Origin: Rhypophila decipiens | Taxonomy: Eukaryota > Ascomycota > Sordariomycetes > Sordariales > Naviculisporaceae | Length of the DNA stretch: 64,000 nucleotides | Assembly (NCBI GenBank): GCA_033297075.1 | Contig: MU858092.1 | Span: forward strand, 1-64,000 | Direction: 5' to 3' | Part shown: piece after piece, positions 1 through 62,621 of the stretch | Layout of the letters: every line of letters begins with the position of its first letter | Position numbering within the stretch: the first letter of the stretch is position 1 | The notes under the pieces: generated by a model | Databases searched by the model: none | What the model saw: only the letters and a program-made list of their open reading frames with translations | Told to the model about the DNA's origin: nothing | Made by a program: the position numbers and the translations under genes

Positions 1-601
1 ACCTTGGTGTGTGTGGTGGTATAGCTGGTAAGTAGACGCCTCTGCGATGGATCGGATGGTGATGATTGCTGACCTTGGTGTGTGTGGTGGTGTAGCTGGT
101 AAGTAGACGCCTCTGCGATGGATGGGATGGTGATGATTGCTGACCTTGGTGTGTGTGGTGGTATAGCTGGTAAGTAGACGCCTCTGCGATGGATCGGATG
201 GTGATGATTGCTGACCTTGGTGTGTGTGGTGGTGTAGCTGGTAAGTAGACGCCTCTGCGATGGATGGGATGGTGATGATTGCTGACCTTGGTGTGTGTGG
301 TGGTATAGCTGGTAAGTAGACGCCTCTGCGATGGATCGGATGGTGATGATTGCTGACCTTGGTGTGTGTGGTGGTGTAGCTGGTAAGTAGACGCCTCTGC
401 GATGGATGGGATGGTGATGATTGCTGACCTTGGTGTGTGTGGTGGTATAGCTGGTAAGTAGACGCCTCTGCGATGGATCGGATGGTGATGATTGCTGACC
501 TTGGTGTGTGTGGTGGTGTAGGATGTAAGTAGACGCCTCTGCAATGGATCGGATGGTGATGATTGCTGACCTTGGTGTGTGTGGTGGTGTAGGATGTAAG
601 T
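1..601 (+). repeat. 71-bp tandem array of intron-like units
   Basis: Eight full 71-bp units start at 1, 72, 143, 214, 285, 356, 427 and 498, and a ninth partial unit starts at 569 and diverges after about 601. Two versions alternate: A (GTATAG, later GGATCGGA) and B (GTGTAG, later GGATGGGA), in the order A-B-A-B-A-B-A. The last two units carry GAT in place of CTG before the donor. Seen directly: every unit holds TAG, a 3-nt CTG or GAT, then GTAAGT, and 40 nt into the interval the motif GCTGAC. This defines 68-nt intervals (28-95, 99-166, 170-237, 241-308, 312-379, 383-450, 454-521, 525-592) with the form of complete fungal introns, with the branch A about 22 nt before AG. The array is cut by the left window edge. 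Units touch each other without unique spacers. Confidence 0.95.
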
Positions 602-2257
602 GGATGTTTCCAGTATTATTTCGATAGTTTGCCAATCTAACCTCTCCCTGTCTTTAGGACTCTTGGACACGCCACCATGATTCCTCATTCGCTGCGAAGT
701 TTCATCGAAAATCGCTACGACATCGTTTCTATAATGCTATCTCATTCAATTCGACAGCCGGCCAGTCAATATTCCTCTTCCTGCGCCAGTGGCTTCAGAT
801 CTGCGACAAGGACCACCCTGAATGCCGTCGACAACCAGTAATGGAAGAGTTTTGGCCGAAGAGGGTTATCGATGTTCGTGACCTCCACAAACTAACCCTT
901 GTCGAAAATCAACGCCGGGGAGAAGACTACCTCGTGCTTTCGCACTGCTGGGGCCTTCCCGAAGACGAAGCTGAAGCGGAAAAAGAAAAGAACCGATTCT
1001 GCACCACGTCAAAGAATTATCAAGATCGACTGCGAGGTGTTAGCTACGACGAGCTACCGAAGACCTTCCAAGACGCAATCCAAGTGACTCGGGCACTTGG
1101 GAAAAAGTACCTCTGGATCGATGCTCTCTGTATCATACAGGGACCCGACGGCGACTGGGAGAGTGAGGCTAAGACCATGGCAGATATCTTCGCCTGTGCC
1201 TACTGCACCATTGCCGCAGGTTCGGCGCGCGGCTGGGCTGATGGCTTTCTGAACCTACAGTCGGATTCCGTGGATATTGGGGTACAGGCCGCTCCAAGCG
1301 CACCGACTTGTGCCTGTGACTTCGACAAAGACGTAGATGGGGGGACCTTGATGAAGAGAGCTTGGGTACTACAAGAACGGGTGCTGTCAAGACGAATCAT
1401 CCATTTCACTTCGGCACACACGTATTGCGAATGCGGAGATGGTGTGCGCTGTGAACAGTTCACAAAACTGAACCCGTAAGTCTATAGGATTGAGGATTGG
1501 ATATCACGAGTAGTACAGAGTCTGATCCCACTTTAGGCCATATAGGAAGCAATACTTCTTCCTAGATCCCAACTTTCCGAGAAGACTTTACGATTCCGGA
1601 TATATACGCACTCTCAACTTCGTTCAATTTCTGATCAGGAAGTATTCAACATCCGGCCTTAGTTATGCAACCGACAGGGACGTCGCAATTTACAGCCTGG
1701 GGGAGCGTATGGCACAAGTGCTAAATACGGAAATGAGATATGGGATCTTCCGTTGTTTTCTTAGTTCTCTTCTCCTGTGGAAGCGGGATGAGAACAAGAC
1801 GTCCCCAATTTCCTACCACAATCGATCTGTGCCATCATGGTCCTGGATGGCATACCCCGGAGGTCTTAATTTCATCCTAGATGCGAATAGCGATCTCAAG
1901 GTCCCAATGGCCGTGGATCTCGGGTTCATCAAAGATGGGAAGGCGCTGAATATCAAAGTGAGGAAGTTTTCCGGCGATTTTCGAATGGAAGATAAAGGGG
2001 AAGAATATGCTATTGTCGATGCGACGGAGCAAATAGGCTCTATATGGTTTGATGTGGCAGACCAGATCCAGCTCAAAGACTGTAATTGCTCTGTTGTTGG
2101 CATGGTTGGGGACGAGAGGAAGGAAGACGCTCGGAAGACTTACCACGTCCTCATTATTCGGGAGAAGGACGGGGACGGGGGATATGAAAGGGTAGGGGTT
2201 GGGAAGGTGGAAGCACAGTATGTCTCCAGGGATTGCGTTGCTGGAACGCTGTGGTGA
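593..2257 (+). CDS. HET-domain protein, 5' end off window
   Basis: Proposed exons are 593-595 (GAT) or further upstream micro-exons, 658-1475 and 1537-2257; the intron at 1476-1536 runs GTAAGT to CTTTAG and joins in phase. The frame is open from 658, so the ATG at 841 is not the start: the upstream residues FLRQWLQICDKDHPEC have the form of the conserved lead-in of HET proteins. The HET domain (heterokaryon incompatibility, non-self recognition leading to cell death) is visible as LVLSHCWG, then LPKTFQDAI, YLWIDALCIIQ, and RAWVLQERVLSRR. The C-terminal half carries VPSWSWMAY, also usual for the family. The family is named for vegetative incompatibility, but many members have no known role. 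The N-terminal part lies left of the window, reached through the intron-like array. No internal stops were seen in this portion. Confidence 0.8.
596..657 (+). other. Canonical intron at the end of the array
   Basis: A 62-nt intron starts with the GTAAGT of the last partial unit (596-601), has a CTAAC branch site at 637-641 and ends in CTTTAG at 657. The following exon opens in the HET reading frame at phase 0. So the donor that is repeated across the array is, in its last copy, the donor of an ordinary intron. Inference from splice motifs and phase; no transcript data. Confidence 0.75.
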
Positions 2258-2907: not shown

Positions 2908-3539
2908 CTTCGCAGTGACGCCGAGAAAGGCCCCCGCCGGTGCTGGCGGTACTCCTCAAAATCAGTCACGTCACCGGGGTGCCTAGAATTAGCTAAAGTT
3001 AGATAACAAGCTGGGGTTTGGACACACCTCATTAGACTCAGTTTCTGGATGCTGATCTCCAGAGTGATCTCGACTGCAACAAGCTCTGCTCAGCGGCTCG
3101 TGGGGTGTAGGACTGGGAAGAGATGGTCGTGAAGCTGAACAAATTAATACACAGAAGAGCCCAGCAGCTTCGGCGAGGCGACATCAAGAAGTTGTCAACC
3201 CCATTGAGCCGGATGATTTCATCAATCTGAGGGCATGGTCTCATCAAGACCAATACGTTAAAAACGATCAGGAATTGCACTGCCGTGCAGGAGGCTCGCC
3301 ACTGCAAACTTGCCGGCTGGTTTCGGCTTCGACAAATTCGGGCTTGTGGTACGAACGGAGGAGCCACGATCAGTCATCATTTCAGACAGCATGCCTACAG
3401 TACGAATGGCGCAGCTACAAGTGGACAGTGTGACGGAAAGCGGGTTTACGGTACGGGAGGCGCAGCATCCACCGGGCGGCGTGCCGGAGTGTAGTCACGG
3501 AGCGGTGGGCGGCAGCGGCGGCAATCCGAGTCGACAACG
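2908..3539. other. Gap, no gene seen
   Basis: 632 bp between the hypothetical frame and the recombinase remnant. Short frames on both strands overlap each other and none looks coding. It may be decayed sequence of the same accessory segment. Confidence 0.5.
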
Positions 3540-5535
3540 TCAGGAGACGAGGAAGACGCGTAATTCTATCGATCTCAGCGAGCGGGAATCAAAGCGGGGC
3601 AGAAAAGCAGTTTGTTGGGAGAGGAGCGAGGAAGAATAGAAGCTGCGCAGGACGCAGACTACAAGGTATGCGAGGAGCATCTTGCCATACAAATTCCCGC
3701 TCTGGTCACCCCCAAGCCCATCTTGATGTAAGAACTGGCTAATGACCGCGCCTGCAGGCGCTGATATGCGACCACTGCCTTTCCCTTGAAAGGGAAGTAC
3801 TGACGGCAGACGTAGGTCAGCAGTTGGCTGGCCAACTTGTCTTCGGCGGTCCGCTTCCGCAAAATAAACCATTCGTCTCTCCTCTACCACCAGGTCTGCT
3901 AGGTAGTAGAGGAGATGGTTAATCCTTAAGCTGATCCGCTTTGTTTGGGGGGAATCGTGCGCGTATTTTTCTCTGACTTGCTTAAACTTTTTGCGGAGTT
4001 GGATCAAGTTCCGTCGTTGTTCGAACGACTTCAGGTCCTCGTTGGTAGGATAGATTGGGGCATTCTCGTCGCGCATCAACGAGGCAGAGAGTAGCCTCTT
4101 GTACAGATCATCATGATTACCCGCATTCTTGAACCAAAGATGATAGGTATGATCTCGTTTCGGAGGATACTCGGTTGGTATGATTTCTTGAACACACTTG
4201 TGGAATGGCCCAAGATGTAATCTCTTACGACTGGGCTTAAGGCACCTGAAAATCTGCGTCAGAATTTGATCGAAGGAATGAAGGTTCGAGTACATACCAT
4301 CAAGCTGCGCTCCAGCTCCCACCCGTAGTGAATATGGAAGCACGCTCTCTCTACTCCCCGCCACAAACCACGTACGTCTCCACAGCTCCCAGAATCGGTG
4401 GTAATTGATAGAGAAAATTGGACGCGCTTTCATATCGTCCTTCCACTCCAATGGAACGAGTTCTTGATCCTCCAATGTAGGCTTTTGTGTGAGTTCCTCT
4501 AATGATCCATATTGTGCGTGCTTGAACGCCCCGTCGGCAATAGCCTGGACCGCGACGAGAGAGACAAGGCAGATGAGCTGGCCAGGAACGGTAGTAATAT
4601 GAATATCGAGGCTTTATGACGTTGTTAGTGAATCGAATCACCGGGCCAGTTGTGTAAAGTTTTACCTACATATGAGTTTGGCTACTGCGGATAGTGTTCG
4701 TCTTTTGTTTGTTTTGGTGGATTGTGATTCTCGCAGTCAGTGCATTGGGTTGATTCGTGCCTGGAACGACGAACAATTGCACGTCCTTGTAAAGAATGTC
4801 CATGGTAGCTCCTGGTCTGAAGCCAAGGCTGCACAGCAGCACGAGGGAATGAAATGCAACACGTGACCTTGGATGACATGGACTGTCCGCTGCACGGCTC
4901 CAGAACATACTGAGGCACATCATGATATCATCACAAGTGGCTTCCTTTGTTGTGAAAGTCTGATCTCTAACTAAGCCGTATTTTTCTGACAGCTCTCCGG
5001 CGATCCACTGTAATGGCATTAGGTTGTGGCTTGTTTTCATAAGGGAGAGGGCAAGGAGCGCATATATTACGTACCTGAGATATGCGAGAGATGGGTCCTA
5101 ATTGGGCATTCGGGGTCTTACTCTGATTCAGAGACCACAGACATTTGCCTTCATCTTCCCTCCGCATTTTGTCGATGACCCTCTCATCAGCCGCTATGAG
5201 CAACAGCTTCCAAGATTCTCGAACGGTGAGGGCAGATTTAACAGAACGAGTGGATATTTATTCGAGCTCGGGATCAAGACAGGGCGCAATTTCTTCCGAG
5301 AACTTGACATAATTGTCAAGGAAGTCCCGAAATACTGCCTCTGGTTCGCTTTTTTGCAAGCAAAGCTGAACGAAAAGCGAGTCTGGATCAGGGACTTTTG
5401 TCGCGGCGCAAAAGTGAAACATGGTGTAGATGGCAACGAGAGACTGAAGGTGAAGGGTGCATCCTGTTCGGCCAGGGGAGCAGCCAGTATTTGTGTCCAG
5501 ACATGCATTATGGCACTAGTTGGTTTTATAATCAA
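3540..5535 (-). pseudogene. DUF3435 tyrosine recombinase remnant (captain-like)
   Basis: Minus-strand exons can be followed through three introns that fit in phase: about 5029-5095 (GTACGT...ACAG), 4612-4669 (GTAGGT, CTAAC, AAAG) and about 4225-4277 (GTATGT...TTCAG). Recognisable DUF3435/FluG-type blocks in order: DNYVKFSEEIAPCLDPELE, WIAGELSEKYGLVRD, FHSLVLLCSLGFRPG, ITIHQNKQKTN, PYSLRVGAGAQLDG, DYILGHSTSVFKKSYQP, RDENAPIYPTNEDL, and VVEERRMVYFAEADRRRQ. FRPG, LRVGAG, GHST and the Tyr of SYQP are candidates for the catalytic Arg, Arg, His and Tyr. Members of this family move the giant Starship transposons of Pezizomycotina. The copy is broken: an in-frame TAA lies at 5260-5258 and a frameshift lies between about 4138 and 4119. 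No convincing start was found and the 3' end is uncertain. Confidence 0.8.
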
Positions 5536-5943: not shown

Positions 5944-7754
5944 TCAACAAACCTCATCCCTCCTCCGAATACAGATTTCCAGCCCCCTAGCCCTCAACTC
6001 ATCCCCAATAACCCTTTCCATAACCTCAGCCCGCCTCCTACACCACCAGTAATCATCCGTCGGGAGCAAGACCCTCACCACACGATAAATATGCAACAAC
6101 ACCACCAAAGCCCTTGAATCCCCTGTAGAGATCAGCGGCAGAAACGGTCCAAAACAGAGCATGGGAAAGGTAAGTACATAGCGGACTATATCTGCTTTTG
6201 TCAGGGGTGCTCTCGCACTACTGTCTGGTGGTGGTGAAGAAGAAGCGAATTGACATGCAAATGCTCCGGCTGGGCAGGTACCCGAGGTCCCGCGCTCTTG
6301 GATGAATGCTATTGCGACTGCTAGTCTTGCGACCAGACGTTCGTAGGCTGCTCGTTGGTCGGCTTCGTCCTGTTGTTGTCCTTGGTTTTGGACAAAGGCC
6401 TCCCCGCTTTTGTAAGAATCCCATAAAGTGCGGACCTTGAACAAATTCCCGCCTTGGGAGCCTAGCGAGAGTGTTTCGGGGAGACTACTCGAGTTGTTAT
6501 CGTTGTTATCGAATGCCATACTCTGAGTAGTAGTAGTAGTAGGTGATGAGATACCGGGACTTTGGGAGACGGTACGACTCGACTCGGGCGTGTAAGCAGG
6601 GGAGAAGGCCCCCCGCCCCCCCTTGTAGCGCGGGTTGTCGTATAGATCCATGAAGCCCTGTGCGATTCGCTGCCAGCTGATCAGGCCCCGGGCGTCAACC
6701 TCGTCTTCTAGCGCCATGCACGGCTGGAGGACTGGTACCCGCATAAAGACGCTGTGGTTGGTTTGGAAGAGCGGCCAGGCCATGAAGAAGATTTGTCGGA
6801 CCCCGGTCGAGAGCCAGTAGAGCCGATCGGCCGAGAGGTCTAGGCCTTCTCCTGGTTGGTTGACGTCCATGAAAGAGAGGTCGCACCACATTAGATGGTT
6901 GATTAGGATGGCTGTGCCGAGGAGGGCATCGCAGTTTGTGGATGTTATTGGGTTTGATAGGGCTTTGCGGTATTCACGGAGGCTTCGGTCTAGGAGGGAG
7001 TAGTTTGCTCTGTGGTAGCGCGGTTGATTGGGGGAGAGGTAGGATTTGTGGGCTGCCGCCAGGGAGAGGACTGCATTTACTAGGTAGGTGTGTTGCTGGG
7101 ACTAGAAATACCGCAAGAGCATGTTTTAGCATTGTTCATGGTTATGGTTCAGGTAATGCCAGTGGTGTCGGGGACATACATGAAATGCCAGTTGAAGCAT
7201 GGTAGGCCAGATCTCCTGGAAACATAGCGTCGGTATGGTAAACCGCTCGAAATGGTGCAGAAGCTCCATGTGAAGCAGGTTGATATTGTCGACTGCTGCT
7301 GGTTGGCTGGCGGGAGCGACGGATGGCGGCCGGGAAGGGATGGACGGTGATGGTGACTGCGCCTGCTGCGCCTGCTGCTGCTGCTGCTGCTGCTGCTGCC
7401 GGTTTCCCTGTCCAGCAGGTCGTGGTGGCCTGTGGCGGACGCACGTCTCGTTGCGTTTGGTGCAGTTGCCGCATGGATACTCTTCGTCGCACTATCAAGT
7501 TGTATCAGTCAGTCAGTCAGCTTCCGGGGAACTTCATTTCCGGCCCCCGATTCGACCGCGGTGTCATCCAGCTCTGGGTATTGTTGGCTGCTTACTTTTA
7601 CCTTGCGTTGTTTGCATCTAACGCAGCCTAGCCTCGATTTCTATATCACATCAAATCACTTGTTAGCTTGCTCTCGTTCCCCGGCCCTTTCGGCGGCCAG
7701 TAGTAGCCACCACACATGGGCCCGTCGCACAAGGAATACTCCGATAACAGACAT
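5944..7754 (-). CDS. Zn2Cys6 fungal-specific transcription factor
   Basis: Exons: 7740-7754 (tentative, 5 codons), 7596-7640, 7180-7491 and 5944-7101, giving 509 aa. Introns run 7641-7739 (branch GCTAAC), 7492-7595 (donor GTAAGC, branch CTGAC) and 7102-7179 (donor GTATGT). The binuclear cluster is complete after splicing: GCVRCKQRKVKC joined to CDEEYPCGNCTKRNETC, with 2-6-5-2-6 spacing, and an intron falls directly before the third Cys. A Gln run from a CTG/CAG tract (about 7375-7401) follows, then HMELLHHFERFTIPTL and a C-terminal region typical of the DUF3468-type fungal factor domain. Expected role: nuclear DNA-binding regulator; targets cannot be inferred. The first exon and start are the weakest part; a different upstream first exon is possible. 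Confidence 0.85.
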
Positions 7755-27700: not shown

Positions 27701-27745
27701 TTTTTGCTTCCTTACTTACCTACCTGTCCTAAGTACATGTAGGTA

Positions 27746-27811
27746 GGGAAATGTGTCAGGTAGTGTAGGGAAATGTGTCAGGTAGTGTAGGGAAATGTGT
27801 CAGGTAGTGTA
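27746..27811 (+). repeat. 22-bp tandem repeat, three copies
   Basis: Unit GGGAAATGTGTCAGGTAGTG plus TA, beginning at 27746, 27768 and 27790, with a partial copy after. Copies look identical, suggesting recent slippage. Confidence 0.9.
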
Positions 27812-28593
27812 GGTATGTCGGTATAGATCTACCGACCCATCGACATCATTGTGTATTTTTTAAGATATGCCTGCCTATCCGACCCTCATTGGGGACAAAG
27901 GATGGATTCTATGCCTAACCAGTAGGAGGTCTATTAACCCCAGTTGTTGTTCCTTTTTAACCCAATATCCTGTTCCAGTCCAGCCACACCAGTTTTGTTT
28001 TATCATGTCCGTACCGAGAAGTGTACCGTTCTCCTTCATGGTCGTCTTCTCAGAAGACATCTCTCCCGCAGGGAGGCACAAGAAAAATGAAACAAAAGCG
28101 AGAGAATGAGAAGGAAAATAAAACGAAAGTAAGTATAGGGGTATCATAAGCTTCATCCAAAAACAAGAAAATAAAGCGACCGTAAACCGTGTAATGAACC
28201 CGCCGGACCCAAATTCCAAGGCCCATTCCGTGTATATTTTGTCCCAAATGTTGCTGTGTAGGCAATTCCAGCGCTGGAGGTCGTTCGTCAGGTATCGAAT
28301 CGAATCGTGTCGTCGTCTTCGTGCCTTCCCGTGCTCTCGTTGCTGCCGGTGTGTAGATGGGCCAATAATGCCGGCGACCCACCCACTGCTCGACCGATGG
28401 CCGACTTGCCGTTCCCTTGATTCCTCCCAGATAAAGGCGTTGCGTGTCGTGACTTGTCCCTCCATTCCCCTTAGTTTCGACCAGTACCCAATCTCCACTC
28501 CTTCAATTCCACCTCCTCACGAGTTTGTAATAACACTTTTTTCTCTTCCCTCGCCCCAAACTCAATTTCCCGTCCAGCAAGTGCTCAACTTCC

Positions 28594-59977: not shown

Positions 59978-62621
59978 ATGTCGCTATGCAGTGCCTGTGC
60001 AGAACACTTCAACTTCTCTCATCCCAATATCATCGCACAGATAAAATATCTCAAAGAAAAAATGTTTAAGTATGCATCCCGCCATCCGGAACATTTTTAT
60101 GAGTCTGAGGTGGATGTCTTGCGCCGTGAACTCGAACGATATCAGCAAGAGGTATCAACTGCCCAGGCTCTAGGGGTAGAGTCTCGCCATGAAGTCTCAT
60201 GGCCAAAACCCTGGGCAGAAGAAGAATTTGATCATCCTTCTTTTATAAGCGCGGAGAGGATTTGGGTGTGGGGGGGGGTTCCGGGGACGGCGAGATTAAC
60301 CGTACATATGGGCAACTTGAGTCTTCCAAAGATTGCCGGATGTGCATTGTGTTCTTGTCGGTGACACAGTATGGATCGAAGACAAGAAGAGTCCAGATCA
60401 ACACCAGTGCAAACATTAGGACCTGGTGGGGGGTGGCAGGCGGTAGTTGCCAACCACTCGCATTGTTTATCAGCTCTGGTGATGCCTATTTTGACTGTGA
60501 CGACCATTTCGACTTCAGACTGAAGCTTACCATGCATTGCGGTGGCACTGGTATGTTCTTTCGTTCTCCGCGGCTTCATTTTGGCGCTTCCGCTAACTTA
60601 TGTCGATGTTCAGGTCTTCCGAGAGGTCTTCCGAGGATACCCACCAGCCTGTCGACTGAGGACCCGTCTTGCACCGAGTTTCTACTTGGGTCGCTCTCGA
60701 ACTGTCTTCTCAACCATCGGCGGTGCGAGAATCGCCCGCTGGACGCTTCGAGCCAGGTCGACGACTCATGGATGCCGAGCAGGCTGCTTGATATCCGCCT
60801 ATTGCCTAACAGAGACCCAGACTTCATTCTCCTCGTCGAAAGGGATGATATCCAGAAACCGAATGGAGTGGGTGAAGAGTCCCAAGTACAGTACTTCACC
60901 CTCAGTCATGTGTGGGGAAGTTCCAGGCCCGCACATCTTACCCAAGCCAACTATGACGACAGGAGGAAAGGAATAAGTTTGTGTGAGAGGTGAATCATGG
61001 ATAAGATCTCTACGGAGCTAAGCTAAGATGTACCGAGCAAGGGGGAGCGCAGGCCATTTATATGGCCAAGTGGCAGTGCTGCACCTACTGCTGCCTAGGG
61101 CAGTACAAAGGAGCCCAGGCAACAGTTTGTATGAGCTCCCCAGGTGTTTTAGAGACGCGGTAAAGGTGGCTCGAGACTTGGGGGGGAGATATTTATGGAT
61201 TGATGCGTTGTGGTAAGTGATCGAATCCAATGGCTGCAGCTCCTAGGCTTACCTTGTGCAGTATTATTCAAGATTCAGCAGATGACTGGGCATCTGAATC
61301 TGCCACTATGAACGAAGTCTATATCAACGGTGTATGCAACATCGCTGCTTGCGACATTCAAGATTCGAATGATAGCTTGTTCTCCACCAGAGAATATCCC
61401 CAGAGCGGAACCGCAATCATTCAAAGACGAAAGTTTATGAGAGGCGATTCCACAGAAGACGTGGTGTTCACTGTCCTGCCAGACTGGCCAAGATTTATCT
61501 GGGACTCATGTAACCTTTACCGCAGGGCATGGGTGATACAAGAACGACGCCTTAGCCGACGTGTCATCCACTTCTCCCAGTTTCCCGTTTGGGAATGCAC
61601 CGTCCGGACCGCCACGGAATTCGAGGAGATGGAACGAACGTCAGCTGGTGTGGAAACTTCTGTCATTCTACTCGATGACCAGAACGAAGTTCGAAAGCAA
61701 CGGGATCAACACATGTTGTTACCTCCCACACTTGAAGTTCAGTCTAGTATCAACTATGAGGAAACGATGAAAGGTTTTTATGTCGGTCGGTGGTGGTTAC
61801 TACTTGAGTCGTATTGCAAAGCTTCACTGACTTAACAAACTGACAAACTCGTCGCTATAGCTGGGATGGCAAAGGCCTACTGGCCTCTCGTTGGAAAAGA
61901 GAATCGCTACTACGCAGGCATTTGGGGAGGGAAGTACTTTCTTCTGGGTCTTCTCTGGCGTTCATCAAAGGATTCTCCTCGTAATCGATTGGACGAGGAT
62001 GGTGTTTATATAGGTAAGCCCTTCCCCTTCTTTGTCTTTCTTTCTCCTTGTTTTTTATATCATGTAGCGCCGACATTCAGAGAGCGAGCGGATATCTGTG
62101 TGGACGATGGCTGAACCAAACTTAACATACCGATATCAACTCTGCTGACTAGCATTTGGACTGGTAATTCTTCAGCGCCTTCTTGGTCATGGGCCAGCAC
62201 GACCGGAGACTTATATATCATAGATCCCTGGTGGCGGGCTGAGAGGACTAGTATCGTGCACACCTTGGTCGAGTTCGTTTCGTGCCATGTCATCCCTAGA
62301 CATGGCGATGTCTTTGGGCAGCTTTCTGGAGCAGAGCTCGTGCTCAAAGGGACTCTCTTTAAAGTTGGGGAAGATCATTCTCGCAGAATCAGGTACGACC
62401 ATGAAGAAGAGGATAGCAGGGGCGAGGATAGTCAAGTTTATTTTCTTCCTTTGCTAGATTGCGTTGCCAAAGAACCGCCCGACTTCAGATATCGAGCGGG
62501 GCTTATACTACGGTTGGCTGAAAACCCTGCCGGCGAGCGGCCAAGATATAAGAGAGTCGGGGTCGTGCCCCTTTTACTTCGACATGTGGGCAGGAACTAC
62601 CGATTTCTCGACGATGAGTAA
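59978..62621 (+). pseudogene. HET-domain gene, probably broken
   Basis: Start MSLCSACAEHFNF. Exons that fit: 59978-60550, 60614-60980, 61126-61212, 61262-62013 and 62176-62621. HET motifs: QYFTLSHVWGSSRP, LPRCFRDAVKVARDLGG, YLWIDALCIIQDSADDWASE, RAWVIQERRLSRRVIHFS, DKLVAIAGMAKAYWPL and PSWSWASTTGD. Two lesions are seen. First, at a run of nine G (60270-60278) the frame of MSLCSAC ends and the downstream part (GEINRTYGQLESSKDCRMC) lies one base off. Second, an in-frame TAA at 61833-61835 interrupts the conserved block before DKLVAIAG. A 145-nt intron-like interval (60981-61125) lies in the domain between two copies of a 12-bp repeat. A gene caller could bridge the TAA with a 100-nt intron (donor near 61771, acceptor 61860), which would delete conserved residues. 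The interval 62014-62175 may hold a small extra exon (APTFRERAD). Confidence 0.75.

Follow-up and report, generated by a model that had tools for sequence, protein, structure and literature searches.

A tandem array of near-identical intron-like units at the 5' edge of a Rhypophila decipiens HET-domain gene suggests amplification of a first intron in place

Introduction

The multiplication of introns has long been a puzzle, and living intermediates of the process are rare. In 2007, Zhuo et al. reportedly traced human introns to tandem arrays. In the dung fungus Rhypophila decipiens, a 71-bp tandem array occupies positions 1 to 595 of the window (the whole stretch of 64,000 nucleotides that was analysed), and a separate 62-nt intron then leads into an exon of an intact HET-domain gene. 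The question raised by this locus is whether the array is a repeat that splicing passes over as a whole, or a first intron that was multiplied in place and is removed largely copy by copy. Near-identical complete introns arrayed in one gene would be an intermediate state of the kind that is rarely seen. Such an array would allow testing of the ordered splicing, skipping and retention of successive introns separated by one-codon exons, and of copy-number effects on protein and expression. In the HET gene family, selection is believed to favour variation between individuals, and an array in a gene of self/non-self recognition could show how introns multiply in place.

Results

Complete intron units repeat head to tail at a contig end

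Tandem repeats were called with TRF, which reported 8.3 copies of period 71 with 96% matches over window positions 1-592. Each of the eight complete 68-nt stretches listed in Table 1 begins with a GTAAGT donor, contains the branch site GCTGAC and ends with a TAG acceptor; donors recur 71 bp apart, and a ninth one opens the last intron. In all eight stretches, 21 nt separate the branch A from the A of the AG that closes the stretch. Upstream of every donor stands TAG plus three nucleotides, which are CTG seven times and GAT twice. The final 62-nt interval carries TCTAAC and TTTAG and leads into the HET exon. An earlier note on this DNA had described this geometry, including the exact 3-nt spacers, and all its elements were located; its proposal that any spacer can be kept or skipped without loss of frame is likewise borne out by spacers of exactly 3 nt.

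Table 1. Features of the array and of the adjoining HET gene (window coordinates)
Feature	Position	Strand	Basis
3' end of truncated intron unit, acceptor ATAG, cut by contig end	1..24	+	
Micro-exon CTG, 3 nt	25..27	+	
Intron unit 1, 68 nt, GTAAGT / GCTGAC / TAG	28..95	+	
Micro-exon CTG	96..98	+	
Intron unit 2, 68 nt	99..166	+	
Micro-exon CTG	167..169	+	
Intron unit 3, 68 nt	170..237	+	
Micro-exon CTG	238..240	+	
Intron unit 4, 68 nt	241..308	+	
Micro-exon CTG	309..311	+	
Intron unit 5, 68 nt	312..379	+	
Micro-exon CTG	380..382	+	
Intron unit 6, 68 nt	383..450	+	
Micro-exon CTG	451..453	+	
Intron unit 7, 68 nt	454..521	+	
Micro-exon GAT	522..524	+	
Intron unit 8, 68 nt, one further substitution	525..592	+	
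Micro-exon GAT	593..595	+	
Last intron, 62 nt, GTAAGT / TCTAAC / TTTAG	596..657	+	
HET gene exon, codons 1-61 before first in-frame ATG (841)	658..1475	+	homologue conservation
Intron between two HET exons, GTAAGT ... TTTAG	1476..1536	+	P0001 has same spliced sequence across junction
Last HET gene exon including stop codon	1537..2257	+	

The GT donor, CTRAC-type branch site, AG acceptor and usual spacing of U2 spliceosomal introns in Pezizomycotina are thus all present in 8/8 units and in the 62-nt intron. The outer donor of a [D]-type stwintron is split by an inner intron, and here every GTAAGT is contiguous. Recursive splicing at a zero-length site would place AG directly against a donor, and here a 3-nt spacer intervenes in 9/9 cases. 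The zero-length pattern itself has at least one match in the genome (at contig C317), as has its control.

Among the first six complete units, two forms take turns: units at distance 2 are identical and units at distance 1 show two differences, which makes a 142-bp dimer the unit of recent repetition. Only 6 of the 71 columns vary across units, and three of these are the micro-exon. What sets the last two complete units apart is mainly their micro-exon, GAT instead of CTG, and they may be the oldest edge of the array. Between the 62-nt intron (596-657) and the unit, no relation was detected, an equally high score being reached by 897 of 2000 shuffles.

Window base 1 is also the first base of contig C48 (228,124 bp). 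Because the contig end truncates the array, eight copies are a minimum, and since the contig begins within the array, exon 1 is absent from the sequence; for the same reason, the copy number may reflect an assembly error. Elsewhere in the window, two other tandem repeats were seen, one of 22 bp at 27739-27813 (3.5 copies, 98% matches) and a short one, CTG/CTGCGCCTG, at 7357-7399.

The array lies within the HET gene

The gene at 658-2257 encodes a HET-domain protein with an intact downstream open reading frame. Its product matches the public R. decipiens model P0001 at 100% over 88% of the query (rounded figures, one residue difference being seen), and Pfam HET (PF06985) scores 93.5 bits on P0001 against a cut-off of 22.5. 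The exon is open in the HET frame from 658 onwards, in phase 0, and its first in-frame ATG lies at 841, where P0001 begins without codons 1-61. These codons are conserved in homologues, with 68% identity over 60 aa in P0002 from Immersiella caudata (the best), 62% over 58 aa in P0003 from Podospora didyma and 56% over 59 aa in Apodospora peruviana. As 61 conserved codons precede the ATG at 841, translation must begin upstream, which places the array within the gene. The placement of the array inside a HET gene, as claimed in the earlier note, therefore stands, and the HET start codon at or after 658 that the note named as refuting it is contradicted by these conserved codons.

An ATG start inside the array that uses its donors is excluded, since each donor is preceded in the HET frame by TAG plus 3 nt. 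This leaves two options, use of the acceptors beside the donors or a donor upstream of the array, and both keep the frame. With all nine visible micro-exons kept, the protein would read LLLLLLLDD ahead of DSWTRHH.

Exon 1 itself could not be located in the assembly: a search for DNA encoding WIH[DY]xF gave one match, at contig C36, which has an in-frame stop just upstream and was judged to be due to chance. For the R. decipiens paralogue P0012, no separate close locus was found in the assembly, the best match beyond C48 being at C238 (56%). On that contig (locus L045 of genome G000, 3058-3816), a HET relative shows 58% identity to residues 268-512 of the array-bearing gene; no match to the N-terminal half occurs in the 5 kb examined, and it is perhaps a truncated copy. 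The window also holds a second, weak HET-protein match at 61257-61652 (+ strand, 33% identity). At 3540-4613 (- strand), an open reading frame shows a weak Pfam match to DUF3435 (27.2 bits, cut-off 25.8), which we take to be the domain of Starship captain recombinases; HET genes are frequent Starship cargo. This reading frame is not among the 20 matches of a genome-wide search.

The strict intron pattern was found only in the array

The genome (45.7 Mb in 408 contigs) was searched with patterns whose counts are lower bounds. The exact pattern of intron, 3-nt exon and donor (GTAAGT-N25..55-CTRAC-N8..30-AG-NNN-GTAAGT) gave at least eight matches, and 8/8 of those counted lie inside the array; over the same 45.7 Mb and with the same lower-bound counting, the opposite strand and a reversed control gave none. 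Chance expectation was estimated from 20,000 tandem arrays built from dinucleotide-shuffled units, with patterns that were picked after the unit was seen. A strict intron arose in 6 of the 20,000 shuffles, and a strict intron followed by a donor within 6 nt in 2. A loose intron definition was satisfied by 2,894 of them, and only the strict signals are therefore informative.

No copy of the unit 3' end was found outside the array with a fixed 28-base and a degenerate 27-base pattern, each allowing up to three mismatches and each giving at least eight matches. With the degenerate pattern reversed as a control, 3 chance matches arose, which puts the three-mismatch limit near chance level. A scan of window positions 1-700 against Rfam (E up to 1) gave no match, and a structured or known RNA was set aside on that result; a snoRNA, suggested by neighbouring TGATGA and CTGA, was dropped on spacing.

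The unit resembles sequence at the exon 1/exon 2 junction of homologue models

We read the first 75 residues of each of the best 120 of 2,775 homologues, and the N-terminal patterns for exon 1 and for the unit peptide were drawn up after this reading. Among these 120 proteins, 20 match the exon-1 pattern. The closest of them (P0002, P0006 and P0011) read MASxSAQxxxWIHDDF and then xSWTRxxD; in P0003, P0007, P0026 and P0034, additional residues separate WIHxxF from the W of SWTR. Another 17 of the 120 hold MDEMVMIADLGVxGG or a variant, the first copy of which falls within residues 1-9; a related motif is found in two more, P0089 and P0108. This peptide is the array unit read in one frame (ATGGATCGGATGGTGATGATTGCTGACCTTGGTGTGTGTGGTGGTGTAG), in which the branch site GCTGAC reads A-D. 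Some homologue models begin inside unit-like sequence (MDEMVMIADLGVCGG...). The two sets overlap in P0108 only, among the best 120 of 2,775.

P0032 from F. solani (exon-1 type) and P0023 from F. oxysporum (unit type) are alike from TTWERR on within the N-terminal part compared. Judged by such pairs, the models either skip the unit by splicing or begin within it, which is what an intron separating exon 1 from exon 2 would produce. The Triangularia verruculosa model P0005, which reads ADLGVYGGVAWLERSGN, has GTAG-compatible residues directly before exon 2 (GGVAWLERSGN), and one unit runs straight into the next exon; being known as a protein only, it may have further copies upstream. P0043 (Canariomyces) shows the same GGVAW, and its model then jumps to the HET core. 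A composite search for such N-termini returned 8 proteins of 30 candidates, none of them new to the 120 homologues.

Judged from these protein models, the unit probably goes back to an old intron at the exon 1/exon 2 position, and it would correspond to intron 1 of the array-bearing HET gene. The earlier note had described a minisatellite that expands as introns; the resemblance to exon 1/exon 2 junction sequence in other fungal models makes a chance minisatellite improbable. As a side observation, the HET models P0004, P0005, P0009, P0012, P0037 and others appear to start inside an intron. Their true start is probably a short upstream exon of the MAS...WIHDDF type, and the N-termini of such public models are likely misannotated.

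Protein models hint at arrays in other fungi

The model P0029 from Fusarium falciforme (Hypocreales) opens with nine diverged units read as protein, 22-25 aa apart. In 9/9 units, A-D stands at the branch place and the residue after I (A, G, D or V) has codons that start with G, compatible with ATAG. At 7 of 8 joints, [CGS][KE]W is compatible with GTRAGTGG, and one joint has no donor-compatible reading. The residues between the branch, acceptor and donor places vary. This reading would imply a 69-nt intron with spacers of 3 or 6 nt, multiples of three that are not independent evidence since the making of gene models favours them. Used as a query, the repeat region of P0029 found only P0029 itself (E up to 10, 7,998 candidates scored).

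In Pleosporales, P0108 (Phaeosphaeriaceae) has four A-A/T-N motifs at irregular spacing (15, 17 and 36 aa), directly after a W-K-D-x-x-F segment that resembles exon 1, and P0089 (Macroventuria) has one such motif. An expression for branch, GG/AA and acceptor, composed after the N-terminal units were seen, matched the 120 proteins (61,818 residues) 13 times, each time in an N-terminal unit. A looser branch/acceptor expression gave 148, of which 129 fall outside the unit-bearing N-termini and mark it as unspecific.

With splice sites read back from amino acids, we regard an array in Fusarium falciforme as probable and one in Pleosporales as possible. The HET relatives in the R. decipiens genome gave isolated matches to the intron expression only (9 regions, in a list of 89 match rows).

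Discussion

A first intron probably copied in place

The explanation that we favour, with moderate confidence, is that the first intron of the HET gene was amplified in place by tandem duplication in steps of 71 or 142 bp, that the copies are spliced largely singly, and that each may optionally add one codon. The first step would have been a tandem duplication that took in intron 1 and 3 nt of the adjoining exon, and further duplication or unequal exchange, lately in two-unit steps of 142 bp, would have expanded the array to at least eight copies that each retained the full set of intron signals. The pre-mRNA would be cleared mostly by intron-definition splicing of 68-nt introns, with several sometimes skipped together; stepwise removal is to be expected since each intron is complete and short. 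For each CTG or GAT retained in the mRNA, the protein would gain a Leu or an Asp after the WIHDDF-like exon 1 and before DSWTR, with the frame unchanged. A copy left unspliced would bring a translation stop, and longer arrays may in this way lower productive expression. The anatomy of the array is observed, whereas the identity of the unit as intron 1, the use of the internal sites, isoforms, copy-number variation and a dose effect are inferred.

Two observations argue for amplification in place: signals are complete in 8/8 units, and their exact geometry is matched only within the array in 45.7 Mb. In addition, conserved coding sequence without a start codon flanks the array downstream. Intron gain by tandem duplication is recognised by head-to-tail copies of local gene sequence, and such copies are found here, in the TRF repeat and in the resemblance of its unit to homologue junctions. 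Other considerations weigh against it. Skipping of the whole array as one intron keeps the frame and matches the protein length of several homologues, three-nucleotide exons are hard to define, and a 3-nt spacer is frame-neutral with a chance of 1 in 3. Moreover, conservation of signals within the array proves nothing, because the units are near-identical through recent duplication. The additional residues in four exon-1-type models, the single P0029 joint with no donor-compatible reading, the irregular motif spacing of P0108 and the failure to locate exon 1 in the assembly count against it as well.

These objections lead to the strongest competing explanation, which we consider less likely though it deserves serious weight: a single long intron containing a minisatellite. 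The donor of exon 1 would join the last acceptor (592 or 657), the internal sites would be bypassed and the protein would be unaffected. Such splicing yields exactly the WIHxxF-xSWTR structure of homologues such as P0002, P0006 and P0011, and it fits the general knowledge that 3-nt micro-exons are poor exons. However, the intron would span more than 650 nt, and splicing would have to ignore eight perfect GTAAGT donors together with eight complete branch/acceptor pairs whose spacing is ordinary for fungi. Intron-definition splicing in fungi favours near pairs, which also counts against it.

It is improbable that the array lies outside the protein-making transcript, either upstream of the true gene start or in a pseudogene broken at its 5' end. 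The public start at ATG 841 would agree with this, as would a contig that ends in the array with no exon 1 in sight. Against it stand the conservation of the 61 preceding codons with full-length homologues, an intron end (TCTAAC ... TTTAG) just 5' of the conserved block, and the intact reading frame downstream.

Still less probable is that the unit is an alternative coding N-terminus (MDxMVMIADLGV..., MDEMVMIADLGV), conserved as a peptide, and that the array repeats a coding exon. The early position of the unit peptide in the 17 models speaks for it, together with the nine copies in the single F. falciforme model P0029 and a between-genus similarity that is high for an intron. In the array, however, this reading ends in TAG at the unit acceptor; the residues of P0029 vary where splice sites allow and are fixed or codon-limited at the branch and acceptor places, and at one and the same junction, P0032 has exon 1 and P0023 the unit. 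In R. decipiens itself, a coding repeat is ruled out by stops in all three frames of the units and by a period of 71, which is not a multiple of 3.

Finally, an introner-like element (a mobile intron family) that was inserted and then locally duplicated is hardly credible, for although similar 3' intron ends can be read in HET models of several orders, the R. decipiens genome gave no copy outside the array at up to three mismatches to either 3'-end pattern, and the same junction in homologues points to descent.

Returning to amplification in place, the protein models from other orders raise the further idea that this intron position is a recurrent site of amplification, at which an old intron, unusually conserved from branch site to acceptor, became an array independently or was retained as one in Sordariales, Hypocreales and Pleosporales, and where expandable exons of one or two codons would alter the N-terminal side of an allorecognition protein and the splicing load of its gene. 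We offer it tentatively and consider it rather unlikely. If it is true that several fungal orders carry arrays at the same position, they would form a natural repeat experiment.

Comparison with known systems

The published accounts cited here were compared in excerpt, and the likenesses and differences below refer to those excerpts. That new introns can arise by tandem duplication is accepted, as presented in a review (PMC3443670) and in studies of potato (PMC4974935) and Drosophila (PMC2891723). The likeness to our locus is that local duplication makes an intron from inherited splice signals, and in the potato RdRp case the duplication crosses an intron-exon border (PMC4974935). In these three accounts, one duplication gives one intron, typically from an AGGT exon piece, whereas the R. 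decipiens array repeats a whole intron plus 3 nt of exon at least eight times. Tandem repeats at exon-intron borders also make human introns, a minisatellite providing splice sites and being able to make alternative introns (PMC2812944). Those repeats concern human genes and cryptic sites; the array unit instead resembles a pre-existing fungal intron with a branch site and a one-codon exon. In Zymoseptoria, tandem duplication of introns within a gene accounts for less than 1% of single intron gains (PMC4457414). This provides a precedent for tandem intron copies in one fungal gene, but the description compared contains no multi-copy array.

In Ascomycota, stwintrons and introns removed in several steps resemble the array in that more than one U2 intron is taken out of a single stretch and exons can be skipped instead (PMC6616335, PMC12403724). 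Stwintrons are nested, however, and splicing of the inner intron restores the outer donor, whereas the array introns lie end to end with complete donors. As to micro-exons, a 3-bp hth exon exists in Drosophila (PMC7392893) and a 20-nt Xlr2 micro-exon is functional in Trichoderma (PMC11121469). Together with recursive splicing, they indicate that tiny donor-adjacent exons can be joined, but in these accounts they are single exons, in contrast to the expandable array of R. decipiens.

Among the open-access papers listed, we found no multi-copy array of complete introns with one-codon exons, nor one in a HET gene, nor such arrays at one position across several fungal orders. The making of introns by tandem duplication is established, and what appears new here is that complete introns stand in many copies with exons of a single codon.
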